NCBI GenBank assembly: GCA_902779185.1
Contig: CACZAM010000002.1
Coordinates: 100,356-164,355, forward strand
Reading direction: 5' to 3'
DNA length: 64,000 bases
Origin: an uncultured Eubacteriales bacterium
GTDB lineage: Bacteria > Bacillota > Clostridia > Peptostreptococcales > Anaerovoracaceae
Every line of letters begins with the position of its first letter. The stretch's first letter is position 1. Below the pieces are notes generated by a model. The model made no database searches. It saw only the letters and a list, made by a program, of their open reading frames with translations, and had not been told where the DNA came from. Both the position numbers and the translations under genes were made by a program. This document shows positions 9,857 through 59,034 of the stretch, piece after piece.

Positions 9857-10042
9857 TAATTCCTGGAATATGCGTTAAAGTCTTCATAATTGAACCTACA
9901 CATACTTAAAGGGATTCCGATGCGGAAGCATTATGTAAAGCCTCCATGGAGTGGACTACAGAAGCCAGGCTCAGGAAGTACCCACCTTATCAAAACTGAT
10001 AGGGCGTCAATTAAAGGCTAAACGGTATTCCGGGTTTTTATT
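9857..10042 (+). ncRNA. ssrS: probable 6S RNA
   Basis: This stretch of about 185 bases between two genes has paired ends: CCTGGAATA (9862-9870) and TATTCCGGG (10026-10034) are complementary with one G-U pair, and the 3' strand runs straight into a T-run (about 10035-10043), giving a closing stem plus terminator. The inside contains GGGATTCCGATGCGGAAGC and CAGGAAGTACCCACCTT, resembling the central bubble and 3' half of Firmicutes 6S RNA, which mimics an open promoter and sequesters the housekeeping polymerase. Length and architecture fit. A TAATAC at about 9835-9840 could be its -10. A covariance-model scan (Rfam RF00013) would decide; a different structured RNA is the main alternative. Confidence 0.6.
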
Positions 10043-10082: not shown

Positions 10083-10112
10083 TTGAAAAAGTCTCTTCTT
10101 TTATGGTAATAT
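10083..10112 (+). promoter_or_regulatory. putative promoter of the P1 peptidase gene
   Basis: TTGAAA (10083-10088) and TAATAT (10107-10112) are 18 bases apart, after the presumed 6S RNA terminator and about 48 bases before the peptidase ATG. The -10 deviates from consensus. Confidence 0.45.
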
Positions 10113-10159: not shown

Positions 10160-12004
10160 ATGGCCATGAAAATGATCAGCGTTACCGATATAGAAGATTT
10201 TAAACTCGGTAATGCGGAAAACAGTGAAAAAGGCACAGGCTGCACAGTCATCATCTGTGAAGAAGGCGCAGTCGGAGGCGTTGATGTAAGAGGCGGAGGT
10301 CCTGCTACAAGAGAGACGGATCTTCTAAGAAGCGAAAACACCGTAAATTCTGTTAATGCAGTAGTTTTGAGCGGCGGTTCCGCGTTCGGCCTTGAGGCTG
10401 CTTCAGGTGTCATGAGAGAGCTGGCTGAACGAAGGATAGGATTTGATGTCGGGGACAACATAGTAGTACCGATCGTTTGCGGCGCATCTCTTTTTGACCT
10501 GCCTGTAGGTGATCCGAAAGTTTTTCCTGATGTTTACATGGGAGCTCAGGCCGTTCGCAATGCTTATAACAACTCTTTTGCCAGAGGAAATCACGGAGCC
10601 GGTACAGGTGCTACTGTAGGAAAGATTAAGGGTTACGACAGGGCCATGAAGACCGGTCTCGGTGCCTTTGCCTGCGGTGACGGAGTGATCGAGGTCGGAG
10701 CAGTAGCAGCAGTCAACGCTGTAGGTGATATCTATAATGGCGCCGGCAAGATCATCGCCGGCTTAAGATCAGAAGACGGAAAGTCCATCTACGGCACAAT
10801 AAAGACTCTTAAAAGCATGGTCCATGACAAAATCAGACTTACTGATGACAACACTTCGTTTATCAACAGATCCGAAGTGGAAGAGGCTCTTGCAGCCGCA
10901 GCGAAGCAATATGAGGAAGAAGAAGCTGCAAGAATGACAGAAGAATCTGAGCCTGAAGCTGTACCTGAGGAATCTGTACCGGAAATTCCGGAAGTATCAG
11001 CTGAACCGGAATTCCAGGAAGAGCCAGCTGAAGAAGTAGTCGAGGAACCGACAGAAGAGGTATTCGAAGAACCAGCTGAGGAATTCGTTGAGGAACCTGA
11101 AACAGAACAGACAGAAGAGTTTGCAGAAGAACTTGCAGAAGAGATCATAGATGAGCCTGCTGCGGAATTCATCCCTGATACTCCTGAGGTAAATGCAGCT
11201 GAAGATAATTCCATGGAGTATGCCGAGATTTCGATTCCTGAAGTATCAGCTGAACCGGAATTCCAGGAAGAGCCAGATGAAGAAGTAGTCGAGGAACCGA
11301 CAGAAGAGGTATTCGAGGAACCTGCAGAGGAATTCGTTGAGGAACCTGAAACAGAACAGACAGAAGAGTTTGCAGAAGAACTTGCAGAAGAGATCATAGA
11401 TGAGCCTGCAGCGGAATTCATCCCTGATACTCCTGAGGTAAATGCAGCTGAAGACAATTCCATGGAGTATGCTGAGGTCTCGATTCCTGAGGCAGTAGCT
11501 GAACCGGAGTTCCATGAAGAACCGGCAGAGGAGATCATCGAGGAACCTGCAGAAGAATTTGTTGAAGAAGAGTATACCGAAGAGCCAGCTGTGGAAGTAA
11601 TCGAGGAGCCGGCAGAAGAATTGGTTGAAGAACCTGCAGCGGAGCAGGCAGAAGAAATCATCGAAGAGCCGGTTGAGGAGGAACCTGTCGTTCTTTCGCG
11701 GGAAGACATGGGATATGACATTGTTTTCAACACGACGATCTCGTGCCTCATTACCAATGCAGCTCTTACAAAGTCTCAGGCAAATAAGCTTGCTTCGATC
11801 CTCCATGACGCATATGCGAGAGCCATCAAGCCTGTTCACGGCACAATGGACGGAGACACTGTATTTGTTCTGGCAACAGGGAAACAGCAGGTCAACTTTG
11901 ACGCATTCGCAGCGCTTGCAACCGATGTAATGCAGTATGCGATAATCGACGGTGCAATGTCGGCTGAAAGTGCGTATGGCATACCTGCAGCAAGAGATAT
12001 GTAA
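10160..12004 (+). CDS. P1 family (S58, DmpA/NylC-type) peptidase with a long acidic repeat insert before the self-cleavage site
   Basis: N-terminal nucleophile hydrolases of this family cut themselves into alpha and beta chains; the new beta N-terminal Ser/Thr is the catalytic nucleophile. Residues 1 to about 250 are the alpha part: GCTVIICEEGAVGGVDVRGG, LSGGSAFGLEAASGVM, GAGTGATVGKIKG, VGAVAAVNAVGD. The beta part begins near residue 525 in DIVFNTTISCLITNAALT; by analogy with NylC (cleavage Asn/Thr) the cut should fall between N524 and T525, leaving a beta chain of 90 residues. Between them lies an insert (about 276-515) rich in Glu, Pro and Val. It contains an 83-residue unit repeated nearly perfectly (249 bp apart: 10985, 11234) and a third diverged partial copy from 11483. 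Usual family length is about 320-370 residues, here 614. No signal peptide is seen, so it is probably cytoplasmic. The next gene (polA) starts 15 bases on. Confidence 0.88.
   Translation: MAMKMISVTDIEDFKLGNAENSEKGTGCTVIICEEGAVGGVDVRGGGPATRETDLLRSENTVNSVNAVVLSGGSAFGLEAASGVMRELAERRIGFDVGDNIVVPIVCGASLFDLPVGDPKVFPDVYMGAQAVRNAYNNSFARGNHGAGTGATVGKIKGYDRAMKTGLGAFACGDGVIEVGAVAAVNAVGDIYNGAGKIIAGLRSEDGKSIYGTIKTLKSMVHDKIRLTDDNTSFINRSEVEEALAAAAKQYEEEEAARMTEESEPEAVPEESVPEIPEVSAEPEFQEEPAEEVVEEPTEEVFEEPAEEFVEEPETEQTEEFAEELAEEIIDEPAAEFIPDTPEVNAAEDNSMEYAEISIPEVSAEPEFQEEPDEEVVEEPTEEVFEEPAEEFVEEPETEQTEEFAEELAEEIIDEPAAEFIPDTPEVNAAEDNSMEYAEVSIPEAVAEPEFHEEPAEEIIEEPAEEFVEEEYTEEPAVEVIEEPAEELVEEPAAEQAEEIIEEPVEEEPVVLSREDMGYDIVFNTTISCLITNAALTKSQANKLASILHDAYARAIKPVHGTMDGDTVFVLATGKQQVNFDAFAALATDVMQYAIIDGAMSAESAYGIPAARDM
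10985..11690 (+). repeat. 249-bp in-frame tandem repeat inside the P1 peptidase gene
   Basis: Unit 1 (10985-11233) and unit 2 (11234-11482) are nearly identical over 249 bp; a third, shortened and diverged unit runs from 11483 to about 11690. Each encodes a Glu/Pro-rich segment beginning IPEVSAEPEF and ending in AAEDNSMEYAE. Near identity of units 1 and 2 at the DNA level points to a recent duplication. The length is a multiple of three, so copy-number change keeps the frame. Confidence 0.95.
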
Positions 12005-12019
12005 ACCGGAGAATAAAAC

Positions 12020-14686
12020 ATGAAGAAACTGATTCTCATTGACGGCAACAGTCTGCTCTTCAGAGCATACTTTGCGATGAGACCAATGGTAACTTCCAAA
12101 GGCATGCATACCCAGGGTGTGTTTGCCTTTGTTAATATGCTCGGAAAGATACTGAAGGACTATGAACCTTCACATATCGCCGTGGCATTTGACCTGAAGG
12201 GCGGCACATTCAGACATGATGTTTATAAGGACTACAAGGCCGGGAGACTGAAAACTCCGCCGGAACTCCTATCGCAGATACCGCTGCTTCACGACGTGCT
12301 TGACGCGATGAACATCGCTGTCCTTGAAGTTCCTCAGTACGAGGCTGATGACATCATTGGAACCGTAGCTGCCAGAGCCGAAAAGGATGGGCTCGACACA
12401 CTTGTTATCTCCGGAGACAAGGACGAGCTGCAGCTTATTGGACCTCACGTGAATGTGCTTATCAATAAGCGAGGCATGAGCGATTTTGACCTCTACGATA
12501 TCGATGCGATGCGTGAAAGATATAATCTTACGCCGGAGCAGTTCATTGATCTGAAAGGTCTGATGGGAGACAGCTCAGATAATATACCGGGTGTTCCGGG
12601 AATAGGTGAGAAGAAGGGCATTGCTCTTCTCGAACAATATGGAACACTTGAGAATCTTATTGATCACGCAGATGAAATCAAGGGGAAGATGGGCGAGAAG
12701 CTGCGCGACAACATAGAGGTCGCCCGTATGTCTAAATGGCTTGCCACTATTAATACAGAAGCTCCTGTGGAATTCGAGTGGAAAGATCTTGAACTTACCG
12801 ATCCGGACATGGAGAAACTGATCGCCATATACACGGAGCTTGAATTCAATTCGTTTATCAAAAAGCTGCAGGCAGGAATGAGCAGCAATGAAGAAATGCC
12901 TGGCATTTCCGCTGCGTCCGACTTTGACAATGAATTCGTTTCGCTGAAACGTACTGACCTTGAAGGCTTTTTCAAAGAGGTCAGGGCAGGAAGCGAAGTG
13001 TTTATTGAAGCGGCAGCTGACGCAAACCATACCGGAGAGCCTGAAATAAGATCCATCTGCCTTTACAGTAAGGATAAGAAGCTTGCATGCGTAAAGGAAC
13101 TCACTCCTATGGACTGTTCGATAACAGTTGATCAGATAGCTGAGAAGGAATACAGACTTACAGGATGCGGACTGAAACGCATACTTTATTCGATGCTTGC
13201 CATGTCTGACAAGGACATCAAACCTTATTATGATGTCATGATAGCCGAGTATCTTCTTGACGCGAACAGACAGAAGTACACGCTTGACAAGATGCTTCTG
13301 AGATATGCCGGATATGCCGCCAAGGAGTCGGAATCCGCGATCCTGGCAGATGATGTTTCGTACAACTCGCTTGATAAGGATCCGGAAGATTTGTTGAAGA
13401 GAGCTTTCTACGTATCAAAGGTCACACCTGAACAGAATAAGGCTCTCGAAGAAAACAGGCTGAAAAAACTGTTTGACGAGTGCGAGATGCCGCTTGCTCT
13501 GACACTTGCGCGCATGGAACTTGAAGGCATAAAGTGCGAGCCGGCAATTCTGAAAGATATAGGCACCGAGCTTGCGGAAAACATCGCTAAGCTCGAGAAG
13601 GAGATCTACGCTGAAGCGGGGACAACTTTCAATATCAACTCGCCAAAGCAGCTGGGAGTCGTGCTTTTCGATGACCTGAAAATACCTTACCCGAAGGGCG
13701 GAAAGAGCAAGAGTGGGTCGTATTCGACTGCGGCTGATGTTCTTGATAAGCTCAGAGATGATCACAGGATAGTTGCTGATGTTCTCGAATACAGGAAGCT
13801 TGCAAAGCTAAAGAGCACTTATGTTGACGGCTTGCTTCCGCTTATAGGACCGGGTAGCAGGGTAAGGCCTCATTTTATGCAGACTGTTGCTGCTACAGGA
13901 AGGCTAAGCTGTACAGAGCCGAATCTGCAGAACATACCTATACGTGATGATTATGGCAGACTGATCCGTAAAGCTTTTGTCGCGGAAAGTGGCATGCTGT
14001 TCACAGGTTCTGATTACTCTCAGATAGAGCTGAGGATCCTGGCGGCACTGAGCGGAGATGAATCGCTTATTGCGGATTTCAGAGCAGGAAAGGACATTCA
14101 CAGGGCAACTGCTTCAAGAGTTTTTGACATACCGGAAAATGAGGTAACAGCACTCGACAGAACAAGGGCAAAGGCTGTCAATTTCGGTGTTGTATATGGC
14201 ATGAGCGGCTTCGGTCTCGGAGAGAGTCTTAACATCACAAGGAGCGACGCCCAGCGGTATATAAACGAGTACTTTGCAAAGCACGCAGCGGTAAAGGAAT
14301 ATCTGGACAGACAGATAGAAAACGGAGAGGAAACACGCGAAGTCAGAACGCATTTCGGTAGGGTACGCAAACTGCCTGAATTCGCTTCCCGTAAATTTAT
14401 GGAACGTGAGCTTGCAAAAAGACTTGCGATGAATACACCTATCCAGGGCACGGCTGCTGATATCATAAAGATCGCTATGAATTCAGTGTCGGCTGAACTG
14501 CGCAGGAAGGGACTTGAGTCAAAGCTCATACTCCAGATACATGACGAACTTATAGTAGAAGGCCCTGAAAACGAAGCAGGCGAAGTAAGGGAAATCCTTG
14601 AAAAATGCATGATGGGCGCTGCTGATCTTGCAGTGGATCTGGTATGCGATATACATACGGGCAAGACCTGGTATGATCTTAAGTAG
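12020..14686 (+). CDS. polA: DNA polymerase I
   Basis: This is the repair and Okazaki-fragment-maturation polymerase (888 aa, normal). The N-terminal 5'-3' exonuclease domain starts LILIDGNSLLFRAYFA and includes YEADDIIGTVA and SGDKDELQL, then the helix-hairpin-helix GLMGDSSDNIPGVPGIG. The middle 3'-5' exonuclease-like domain is degenerate and lacks a recognisable DxE motif, as in Bacillus and many Clostridial PolI. The polymerase domain is complete: motif A SDYSQIELRILAALSG (catalytic D665), motif B RTRAKAVNFGVVYGMS and motif C LQIHDELIVE (catalytic D842). So it should polymerise and remove primers but not proofread. It starts 15 bases after the peptidase and is followed by coaE 12 bases on. 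Confidence 0.97.
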   Translation: MKKLILIDGNSLLFRAYFAMRPMVTSKGMHTQGVFAFVNMLGKILKDYEPSHIAVAFDLKGGTFRHDVYKDYKAGRLKTPPELLSQIPLLHDVLDAMNIAVLEVPQYEADDIIGTVAARAEKDGLDTLVISGDKDELQLIGPHVNVLINKRGMSDFDLYDIDAMRERYNLTPEQFIDLKGLMGDSSDNIPGVPGIGEKKGIALLEQYGTLENLIDHADEIKGKMGEKLRDNIEVARMSKWLATINTEAPVEFEWKDLELTDPDMEKLIAIYTELEFNSFIKKLQAGMSSNEEMPGISAASDFDNEFVSLKRTDLEGFFKEVRAGSEVFIEAAADANHTGEPEIRSICLYSKDKKLACVKELTPMDCSITVDQIAEKEYRLTGCGLKRILYSMLAMSDKDIKPYYDVMIAEYLLDANRQKYTLDKMLLRYAGYAAKESESAILADDVSYNSLDKDPEDLLKRAFYVSKVTPEQNKALEENRLKKLFDECEMPLALTLARMELEGIKCEPAILKDIGTELAENIAKLEKEIYAEAGTTFNINSPKQLGVVLFDDLKIPYPKGGKSKSGSYSTAADVLDKLRDDHRIVADVLEYRKLAKLKSTYVDGLLPLIGPGSRVRPHFMQTVAATGRLSCTEPNLQNIPIRDDYGRLIRKAFVAESGMLFTGSDYSQIELRILAALSGDESLIADFRAGKDIHRATASRVFDIPENEVTALDRTRAKAVNFGVVYGMSGFGLGESLNITRSDAQRYINEYFAKHAAVKEYLDRQIENGEETREVRTHFGRVRKLPEFASRKFMERELAKRLAMNTPIQGTAADIIKIAMNSVSAELRRKGLESKLILQIHDELIVEGPENEAGEVREILEKCMMGAADLAVDLVCDIHTGKTWYDLK

Positions 14687-31666: not shown

Positions 31667-32110
31667 ATGAAGAAGTTGGGAAGAGTGATTGGTTTATTCT
31701 GCGTATTACTGATGGTCCTTAGTCTGATGGCCGGCTGCGGTTCTGATACCAGCGAGGCCGTACAGGAAGAAGCACAGGAAGAAGTGCAGGAAGAAGTGCA
31801 GGACGCACAGGAAGAGGCGGTTGAGCTTGAGCAGGAAGCCGAAGAACAGGTAGAAGAAGCTGTACAGAGCGATGATTCTGCAGGCAGTGAAGCAAAAGAG
31901 ATCGGCGAGGATGCTGCCCTGAAAATCGCGCTGAAAGATGCAGGCCTGTCGAAATCTGAGGCAGAAAGAATAAAATGCGAACTCGATTATGACGATGGAC
32001 GTACTGAATATGAGATTGAATTCCATAAAGGAACAACAGAATACGAATATACAATAGATGCATTTTCAGGCGATATCCTGGAAAAAGATATCGATAATGA
32101 CAACGACTGA
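31667..32110 (+). CDS. lipoprotein with acidic linker and PepSY domain
   Basis: A lipoprotein signal peptide with lipobox LMAGC (cysteine at about residue 24) is followed by a linker of about 50 residues rich in Glu and Gln with short repeats (EEAQEEVQEEVQ). The C-terminal part (about 80-147) is a PepSY-type domain: EDAALKIALKDAGLSKSEA then YEIEFHKGTTEYEYTIDAFSGDILE. PepSY domains are found on secreted or surface proteins, often as inhibitors or chaperones of proteases; the target is unknown here. It has a GGGAGGAG site. It is a single gene between the ylbF-like gene and efp. The acidic linker resembles the insert in the P1 peptidase in composition only. Confidence 0.85.
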   Translation: MKKLGRVIGLFCVLLMVLSLMAGCGSDTSEAVQEEAQEEVQEEVQDAQEEAVELEQEAEEQVEEAVQSDDSAGSEAKEIGEDAALKIALKDAGLSKSEAERIKCELDYDDGRTEYEIEFHKGTTEYEYTIDAFSGDILEKDIDNDND

Positions 32111-55511: not shown

Positions 55512-55653
55512 TTTTTCGTTTTTATGGGATCAACATTAGCTCATGTATATACTCTATCAGTTTGCGTGATGCGTTTTTACACAAGTTGATTATTCCGGGG
55601 CGCTGAAAGCGCCTGTCCGATGAAATGGAAATCGCCTGTCCGACGACAGGAAA

Positions 55654-56365
55654 TCATCCGCCGTATACTTCGGTGGTGGCGAAGTAGGCATCGTATTTGA
55701 TGCGATCCATGATAGAGTCAGCAAGAGGGTTGTCATCACCGCCAATACGCTCATACCAGCCCTCATCAAGGAACTGTGAGCAGAATATTGTCGAGGATTT
55801 CTTCCTCCGCTTATGAATGACCTCGAAGACGACCTTGGCTTCACCGTCATCAAGAGGTGTAAGCAGCCATTCATCTATGATCAGGAGCCTTGGATTCGTG
55901 TACTTCTTGAGCGCCTTAGCAAATGCATCGGTGCCTACAAGCGGCATCAGTTCTATGAGCAGATCAGGAAGTCTGACGAATCTGACCTTGTAATAATGCA
56001 TACATGCTGCCAGACCAAAAGCACAGGCCAGATAAGTCTTGCCGCTTCCGGCAGCACCGATAATGAAAATATTGCGATATTCCGAGATGTACTCGCAGGT
56101 GGAAAGCCGATCGATCAGATCACGGTTGAGCTTACGGCCGGCCCCATAGTTGATGCCAGCTATTGTAGCATCCGGCTGCTCGAATTCAGCTTTCTTGATC
56201 AGTCGCTTCAGTCTGTTGTCCTTGCGCTTCGAGTATTCGATGGCTGAAACGATCCTCGAAGTTCACTTCGTTCATCTTAGGATCATCCAGCTGGATCCTG
56301 AGGGCATCAGCCATTGCGGTGAGTTTCATCTCGATGAGTTTATCTATGGTCGCGTTAGTCAACAT
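55654..56365 (-). pseudogene. istB: istB, IS21 helper ATPase, frameshifted
   Basis: IstB is the AAA+ ATPase that helps IstA choose and hold target DNA. From the ATG at 56365 the frame reads MLTNATIDKLIEMKLTAMAD ... NFEDRFSHR and stops early. A shift of one base near 56235-56248 restores EYSKRKDNRLKRL and the rest: GINYGAGRKLNRDL, Walker A IGAAGSGKTYLACAFG, LLIIDEWLLTP (Walker B) and VYGG at the end. Full length would be about 236 residues, usual for IstB (about 245). It overlaps istA by 11 bases. One indel could also be a sequencing error. Confidence 0.85.
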
Positions 56366-57915: not shown

Positions 57916-58039
57916 AACTTCGACCTCCTTAAAATTGAATTTACACCATAGGTGCATGATTCAATTATATGAGGTCGATTTCCCGGCTGGAATGATGATT
58001 TCCTTTCTGCCGGAATGGTGATTTCCTCATGCCGGACAG

Positions 58040-58291
58040 GTGCGGGAAACTACGCAGGAATACTCAGTTGCCAAAAGAATATATGAGCTATGCCGTGAGC
58101 GCAAATGGACTCCAAACCATCTTGCAATCGTTTCTGCTGTGCCTCAGGCAACGATCAAGAGCATCCTGAACGGTGAAAGCCAGAACCCAGGGATCGTCAC
58201 CATTAAAAAACTGTGTGACGGATTCGATATATCATTGTCTGAATTCTTCACTACCCCCGAATTCGAGGAACTTGAACAGGAGATAAAGTAA
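58040..58291 (+). CDS. XRE family helix-turn-helix regulator, 5' end rewritten by the IS
   Basis: The 83-residue protein has a complete Cro/C1-type HTH: YSVAKRIYELCRERKWTPNHLA, VPQATIKSILNGE, NPGIVTIKKLCDGFDISLSEFF. Family members of this size usually begin directly with (x)IAKRI. Here the only start is GTG at 58040, inside the IS terminus, so the first nine or so residues (MRETTQEYS) come from IS sequence. The original start and promoter probably lie beyond or were lost at the insertion. Expression would need to come from the IS end. Downstream is a strong bidirectional terminator. Confidence 0.7.
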   Translation: MRETTQEYSVAKRIYELCRERKWTPNHLAIVSAVPQATIKSILNGESQNPGIVTIKKLCDGFDISLSEFFTTPEFEELEQEIK

Positions 58292-58947: not shown

Positions 58948-58964
58948 CGTTCCAGATCCTTCGT

Positions 58965-59009
58965 CCAAAGTTTTTCGTGCAAAAGTCTTTCGTGCCAAAG
59001 TTTTTCGTC
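58965..59009. repeat. three tandem 15-bp repeats before the cyclophilin start
   Basis: CCAAAGTTTTTCGTG (58965-58979), CAAAAGTCTTTCGTG (58980-58994) and CCAAAGTTTTTCGTC (58995-59009) are adjacent 15-mers differing at two or three positions. They lie in the hyuB-cyclophilin spacer, directly before the preferred start. Confidence 0.85.
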
Positions 59010-59034
59010 AAAAGCCTTCATCAATTGCCCGCGG

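Follow-up and report, generated by a model that had tools for sequence, protein, structure and literature searches.

In the 64-kb stretch of DNA analysed here (the window), an ORF that begins with ATG and encodes 614 residues (10160..12004, + strand) specifies a peptidase of the known S58/P1 family in which a new element, a long acidic repeat insert, lies ahead of the predicted self-cleavage site. We propose, with moderate confidence, that the surface loop preceding the cut of this S58/P1 Ntn-hydrolase was expanded in one Anaerovoracaceae lineage into a docking helix and a polyanionic spacer or brush. Our proposal builds on the computed anatomy of the gene, the conservation of its catalytic positions, the single clade formed by the long-linker proteins, the growth of the segment beside polA, a helix motif in most genus members, the negative charge of the linkers and their predicted disorder.

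An S58/P1 peptidase with a long segment at the alpha/beta junction

The Peptidase_S58 profile (Pfam) matched the ORF product with 108.6 bits (gathering cut-off 23.9) in two stretches, the best of which covers residues 7-189 (5.8e-31), while an NCBIfam search of the product gave no meaningful match. The alignment to the closest solved structure, 9cxr (5.3e-52), is split in the same manner into residues 8-209 and 523-597 with about 310 residues between them, and comparison of the predicted fold by Foldseek retrieved Nyl50 (3.7e-25, TM 0.91 on the target) as well as NylC, ThnT, BapA and DmpA, as expected of a P1 fold. The alpha block (residues 1-222; 10160..10825, + strand) includes the Pfam stretch 7-189, has pLDDT values mostly above 90 and carries the conserved Lys155 and Asn186, and the beta block (residues 525-614; 11732..12001, + strand) was delimited from alignments, starting with the nucleophile Thr525 and containing the conserved Asp564 and Asp566 (we take the DGD aspartates to be catalytic positions of S58/P1 enzymes). 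K155, N186, N524, T525, D564 and D566 are present in all 68 rows of an alignment of relatives, and in a 72-row alignment Thr525 is invariant and Asn524 occurs in at least 90% of the rows. On the basis of spacing and conservation, K155 and N186 are probably the equivalents of Lys189 and Asn219, which are named as catalytic positions of NylC (PMC6021441). The alignments also delimit a conserved pre-cleavage segment, DMGYDIVFN (residues 516-524; 11705..11731, + strand), and the predicted cut between Asn524 and Thr525 corresponds to codons 11729-11734. The initial annotation of this DNA, made from the sequence alone, had claimed intact S58 alpha and beta blocks, a cut numbered Asn524-Thr525 and, at the junction, an acidic insert with two near-identical 83-residue units; the Pfam match and the catalytic positions bear out the first of these, the codon positions the second and the repeat analysis below the third. 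Judged by sequence and predicted fold, the product has every S58/P1 feature that we checked, and it departs from a usual but non-defining trait of the family, the short alpha/beta linker, in having 296 residues at this place versus 2-16 in 50 of the 72 aligned rows. On the minus strand, two ORFs overlap the repeat in antisense (10789-11757 and 11246-12109), and we attribute both to the codon make-up of the repeat.

The segment missing from ordinary S58 enzymes comprises residues 221-516. It starts with about 42 non-repetitive residues that include a predicted helix (residues 237-261; 10868..10942, + strand) holding the genus motif described below, and continues as an acidic Glu/Pro/Ala-rich region that, by composition and pLDDT, is predicted to be disordered (residues 263-509; 10946..11686, + strand). 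Tandem Repeats Finder (score 960) and self-comparison resolved within this region two copies of a 249-bp repeat (10985..11233 and 11234..11482, + strand) that are 96% identical, with 10 base differences and 2 residue differences between their 83-residue products. Downstream of them (11483..11686, + strand) come the beginning of a third copy, traceable to about 11520, and 12/24-bp units of the EEPA type. The Glu/Pro-rich stretch stops at about residue 509, which confirms that the insert ends just before the Asn524-Thr525 bond but puts the distance at 12-15 residues rather than the roughly 10 first estimated. When the window was scanned in 60-residue slices (step 10), 26 slices that carry 0.25 or more net negative charges per residue fell within the ORF (+ strand) versus 18 elsewhere in all six frames. 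AlphaFold2 run with the 72-row alignment returned a mean pLDDT of 73.4, with values mostly above 90 in the core and, in the insert, of 92-93 at residues 241-260, about 41-51 at 271-490 and 53-64 at 491-520; on 25 genus sequences alone the mean was 48.9 with a poor core, which the 72-row alignment mended. Helices rich in Ala and Glu may score a high pLDDT without docking. A search of the window's own genome with a 72-residue piece of the repeat unit matched this gene alone, and we therefore see no sign of a dispersed element, low-complexity matches being liable to under-reporting in such a search. Elsewhere in the window, a 12-bp tandem array (31763-31803) encodes an acidic stretch of the QEEV type in a lipoprotein-like ORF, and short tandem repeats of 15-29 bp are found at 55605-55655, 57989-58042 and 58960-59018.

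Distribution and origin of the segment beside polA

A first search for S58 matches in the window's genome and 60 relatives found them in 27 of the 35 other genomes of the same genus. The insert is evident in 26 of these 27, as separate alpha and beta matches or as a long single span (G020), the gene of the remaining genome (G011) being cut by a contig edge; 25 of the 26 were taken as loci L032-L056 and the 26th as L065. Measured with one anchor pair (a fallback anchor adds a few residues in L039 and L048), the linkers of the window and L032-L056 are 131-419 residues long. In the 68-row alignment, where the linker is the equivalent of window residues 221-516, it measures 44-416 residues in 36 rows and 4-9 in 32, and in the 72-row alignment 44-296 residues in 22 rows. 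The search of S58 proteins for junction inserts that had been suggested at the outset thus yielded 35 proteins with long linkers, as the 36 rows include L080, a duplicate of L064. These 35 are the window's protein, 27 congeners (including L079, whose linker matches that of G506) and seven proteins from other genera (L058-L064; Mogibacterium, which NCBI taxonomy places within Anaerovoracaceae, and near genera), and the named members of the clade are Mogibacterium kristiansenii (L080), Mogibacterium sp. RGIG2438 (L079) and two uncultured Clostridiales assemblies. Rows missed by the extraction pattern (L016, L018-L021, L069, L076 and L077) were dropped before counting, L078 and L081 were not used as rows because they are probable duplicates (L080, L078 and L081 match L064, L034 and L050, respectively), the fragment L057 was not counted and L080 was left out of the trees; in the early extraction of relatives the pattern also placed the nucleophile of L106 wrongly and overlooked some of the loci.

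A wider search returned S58 matches (E 1e-20 or better) in 37 of 47 genus genomes, the match in G512 being an insert-free paralogue and those in G011 and G507 fragments. Since the other 10 genomes, including G004 at 99% completeness, gave no match and G512 has the insert-free paralogue alone, neither the insert nor the gene is essential. Later finds within the clade include two with a short segment, L170 (same genus) with 19 residues and L167 with 24; 19 is the lowest value among 41 clade rows, none of which is back at the 7-8 residues of short-linker rows. A second S58 paralogue of the genus (L018 and L179) is insert-free, and in L018 a lipoprotein-like N-terminus and an acidic Asp/Thr/Ala-rich stretch precede the enzyme. 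Another locus (L180, G339:C111) matches S58 with a beta block alone, in a frame of 424 residues where neither an alpha block nor the acidic insert was seen, and is perhaps a decayed copy, and the S58 protein of L040 (G033) has a short C-terminal tail unlike that of the other aligned genus rows, as if its frame shifts near the end.

Across the family, 102 of 148 genomes have S58 matches, most of which span about 930-1000 bp and hence lack a long insert; the longer or split matches (G119, G124, G135, G166, G182, G189 and G091) were fetched. Matches were found in at least 112 of 299 genomes of the phylum, and among the matches listed in that survey the window's is the only one in which a long frame has an alpha match that breaks off at the junction. 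Eight long outliers were taken for inspection, five from the phylum and three from the family. One of them, L167, proved to be a clade member, and L162-L166, from distant Bacillota, have smaller and unrelated low-complexity linkers at the same junction (Gly/Ser-, Pro/Gly- or Asp/Asn-rich; L162-L165 judged by eye), indicating that the junction loop tolerates padding. Within the sampled genomes, long acidic linkers are special to the clade of the window.

A maximum-likelihood tree of 67 core sequences from which the insert columns had been removed (midpoint root, several long branches flagged) placed the 35 long-linker proteins on one side of a single branch (100/99; 1 change), which gives them a single origin. 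When six late finds were added and an outgroup was included (52 rows), a second tree recovered a clade of 41 (100/100). The group next to it contains Emergencia timonensis L082 together with L122, whose linkers are both short (96/89; L122 on a long branch). L170 is the earliest branch within the genus (97/88 for the remaining members), a place that is unsure because its branch is flagged as long, and L167 lies beside Mogibacterium (98/93). The insert would either have begun small and then grown, or have shrunk in L170 and L167, two histories that the data do not separate. A polA-like ORF, named from its sequence (12020..14686, + strand), lies 15 bp downstream of the S58 ORF and is its probable operon partner. 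Of 34 other clade loci, 31 have the polA start motif next to the S58 gene, as does the short-linker Emergencia L082 (the motif was not caught in L040, L061 and L062, and the S58 pattern itself was missed in L059 and L060). Because the short-linker Emergencia homologue is also directly upstream of polA, the segment grew in place. On the other side, a 6S RNA (9857..10040, + strand; Rfam RF00013, 56.9 bits) lies between a yebC-like ORF and the S58-polA pair, with 6S RNA at the Rfam threshold also in 6 of 20 relatives' loci searched, and a sigma-70-like promoter match (10083..10112, + strand) precedes the S58 ORF, such matches being no more frequent in the region than by chance.

The same comparisons bear on whether a repeat expansion or a wrong frame in one assembly could have created the insert, an assembly expansion being among the findings that the initial annotation had named as fatal to its reading. 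With 81 contigs and 79% completeness the window's genome is a fragmented assembly, and since repeats of 249 bp are open to misassembly, the copy number given here may not be exact. However, open-frame inserts occupy the same place in 26 other genus genomes, a shorter open-frame insert, of 44 residues, is present in the named strain M. kristiansenii and the two repeat copies differ at 10 sites. As other genomes show the same layout, the insert is not an assembly artefact; this explanation is largely refuted for the insert, and we regard an artefact of assembly or gene model as very improbable.

Helix motif, charge and repeat turnover of the linkers

A 14-residue motif, [KR]x[DE]I-x-x-A-[ILM]-x-x-[AS]-[FY], was discovered in 15 diverse genus linkers with an EM score of 473 versus 266 ± 8 in 12 shuffled sets. 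Scored with a leave-cluster-out profile, for which the left-out clusters were drawn by hand from the tree, all 28 genus linkers were equalled by at most 3 of 300 of their own shuffles, and 22 by none. The motif is kept across seven subclades, with the weakest scores in the window's own, and when it was sought in seven clade members outside the genus none stood out. Among four complete later linkers subjected to the shuffle test, L173 (close to L052 and L053, which had already been used) and L174 passed and L171 and L175 failed; L172 was not counted as held out, its linker being the same as that of L079. Because two of the four failed, the motif is common but not universal in the genus.

The net charge of the linker is negative in all 35 proteins (-7 to -146) and scales with length (rho -0.81); with the later finds included it is negative in 40 of 41 clade rows, the exception being L170 (+1), and the genus members L050, L054, L055 and L056 are weakly acidic for their length. 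Of 26 genus ORFs, 17 contain tandem repeats, which differ between species and have periods of 12-249 bp that are all multiples of 3. In-frame repeat dynamics, as first suggested, are thus seen across the genus, and the accompanying notion of a length-variable enzyme holds for variation between species, each represented by one genome. The present comparisons add to the initial annotation that the insert is lineage-wide, that the helix motif is common in the genus and that strong acidity is not universal. Between the window's repeat copies, 2 of the 10 base changes are non-synonymous versus 70-78% expected without selection (P ~0.0001-0.0014). In ten species pairs, aligned linker identity is 0.40-0.72 versus 0.87-0.93 for the core and linker dN is about 5-9-fold above core dN, and for L033/L037, the pair whose linkers are most nearly identical, dN/dS is about 0.14 for the linker and 0.03 for the core, values to be read with synonymous sites near saturation in most pairs and linker alignments uncertain.

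Possible roles of the segment and comparison with known enzymes

Loop 5 of NylC (residues 258-269) is flexible, with residues 261-266 invisible in the crystal, and at the tetramer surface the C-terminal region of the NylC alpha chain is flipped outwards, in the direction of the adjacent monomer (PMC6021441). By analogy, an insert at the equivalent of this loop should leave the core undisturbed and hang free after the cut. For cleavage, oligomeric state, docking and function of the S58 protein we infer the following course. Expansion in this lineage would have given a short helix motif by the folded core and then, by in-frame tandem duplication, a long disordered polyanionic tail. The precursor would fold with the insert looped out, Thr525 would attack the Asn524-Thr525 bond and the insert would become the C-terminal tail of the alpha chain, the assembled enzyme having several acidic tails around its active sites. 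The most likely role of the helix is docking, be it to a partner or to an adjacent subunit, and that of the tail is to form a spacer or an electrostatic brush on whose length and charge, rather than sequence, selection acts. More tentatively, the maturation cut might convert a repeat domain that lies within the precursor into a tether, polyanionic and free at its C-terminal end, that carries a docking helix and is tuned in length by in-frame repeat turnover.

Neutral growth is a serious rival to this proposal, and it is quite conceivable that slippage and duplication lengthened a tolerant surface loop without function, frame and solubility alone being policed. Loop 5 of NylC is indeed flexible and at the surface (PMC6021441), L162-L166 have unrelated low-complexity linkers at the same site, linker identity has fallen to 0.40-0.72 with the core at 0.87-0.93, some members are weakly acidic, L170 has 19 residues with a charge of +1, and two of the four linkers found later did not pass the motif test. 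On the other hand, mere padding does not readily account for a helix motif kept across seven subclades, for net negative linkers in 40 of 41 clade rows, for the few non-synonymous changes between the repeat copies or for the lowest linker of 19 residues, with none of the 41 rows back at 7-8. It is improbable, in our judgement, that the segment instead regulates the enzyme itself, the helix and acidic tail folding back before or after cleavage to cover the entrance of the active site or to steer charged substrates. The end of the insert adjoins the nucleophile, the alpha C-terminal region of NylC flips towards a neighbouring monomer (PMC6021441) and the helix is predicted at high confidence, all of which would suit such self-regulation; yet solved structures exist for related enzymes that have no insert. 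A docking helix with a tail is favoured over both neutral padding and self-regulation.

Interest in P1 peptidases stems from nylon degradation, beta-peptide chemistry and carnosine synthesis, and the family also serves as a model of self-processing. A lineage with as many as about 400 disordered residues immediately ahead of the cleavage site would reveal how far that reaction can accommodate added sequence, and one gene beside polA offers a natural graded series (19, 24, 44, 51, 66 ... 416 residues, with 7 in the nearest short-linker relative) that could be used to ask whether disordered tails influence how the enzyme is processed, assembles or selects its substrates. The lineage further provides a compact setting in which neutral growth of disordered regions can be weighed against selection that acts on charge, length and short motifs. 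A search of open-access papers by title and opening lines of the abstract turned up no P1 enzyme or Ntn hydrolase described with such a segment.

Among known enzymes, the Nyl50 polyamide hydrolase (9cxr) is the closest solved relative in sequence (5.3e-52) and fold (TM 0.91 on the target) and, with a chain of 305 residues, has no long insert. NylC (6-aminohexanoate-oligomer endohydrolase; 3axg, 5xyp, 7yu0) shares the fold, the Lys/Asn/Thr positions, the Asn-Thr site and a flexible loop at the alpha C-terminus, but its loop 5 is confined to residues 258-269 and has neither an acidic repeat region nor the helix motif. ThnT (3s3u, 3tm1, 4ihe), whose role is biosynthetic, has the S58 fold and an Asn-Thr site, and uncleaved mutants of it have been solved; it differs in a much shorter junction, the alpha match stopping at its residue 255 and the beta match resuming from 290. 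The beta-aminopeptidases DmpA and BapA (1b65, 3n5i; target chains of 353-371 residues) gave weaker P1 fold matches; the nucleophile of DmpA is a serine, and so is that of BapA to judge from the title of an S250A precursor structure. Both belong to the P1 family of self-processing Ntn hydrolases (PMC4456602). The group nearest to the clade in the core trees includes Emergencia timonensis L082, whose S58 gene likewise lies beside polA but differs in encoding a linker of 6-7 residues without the insert.
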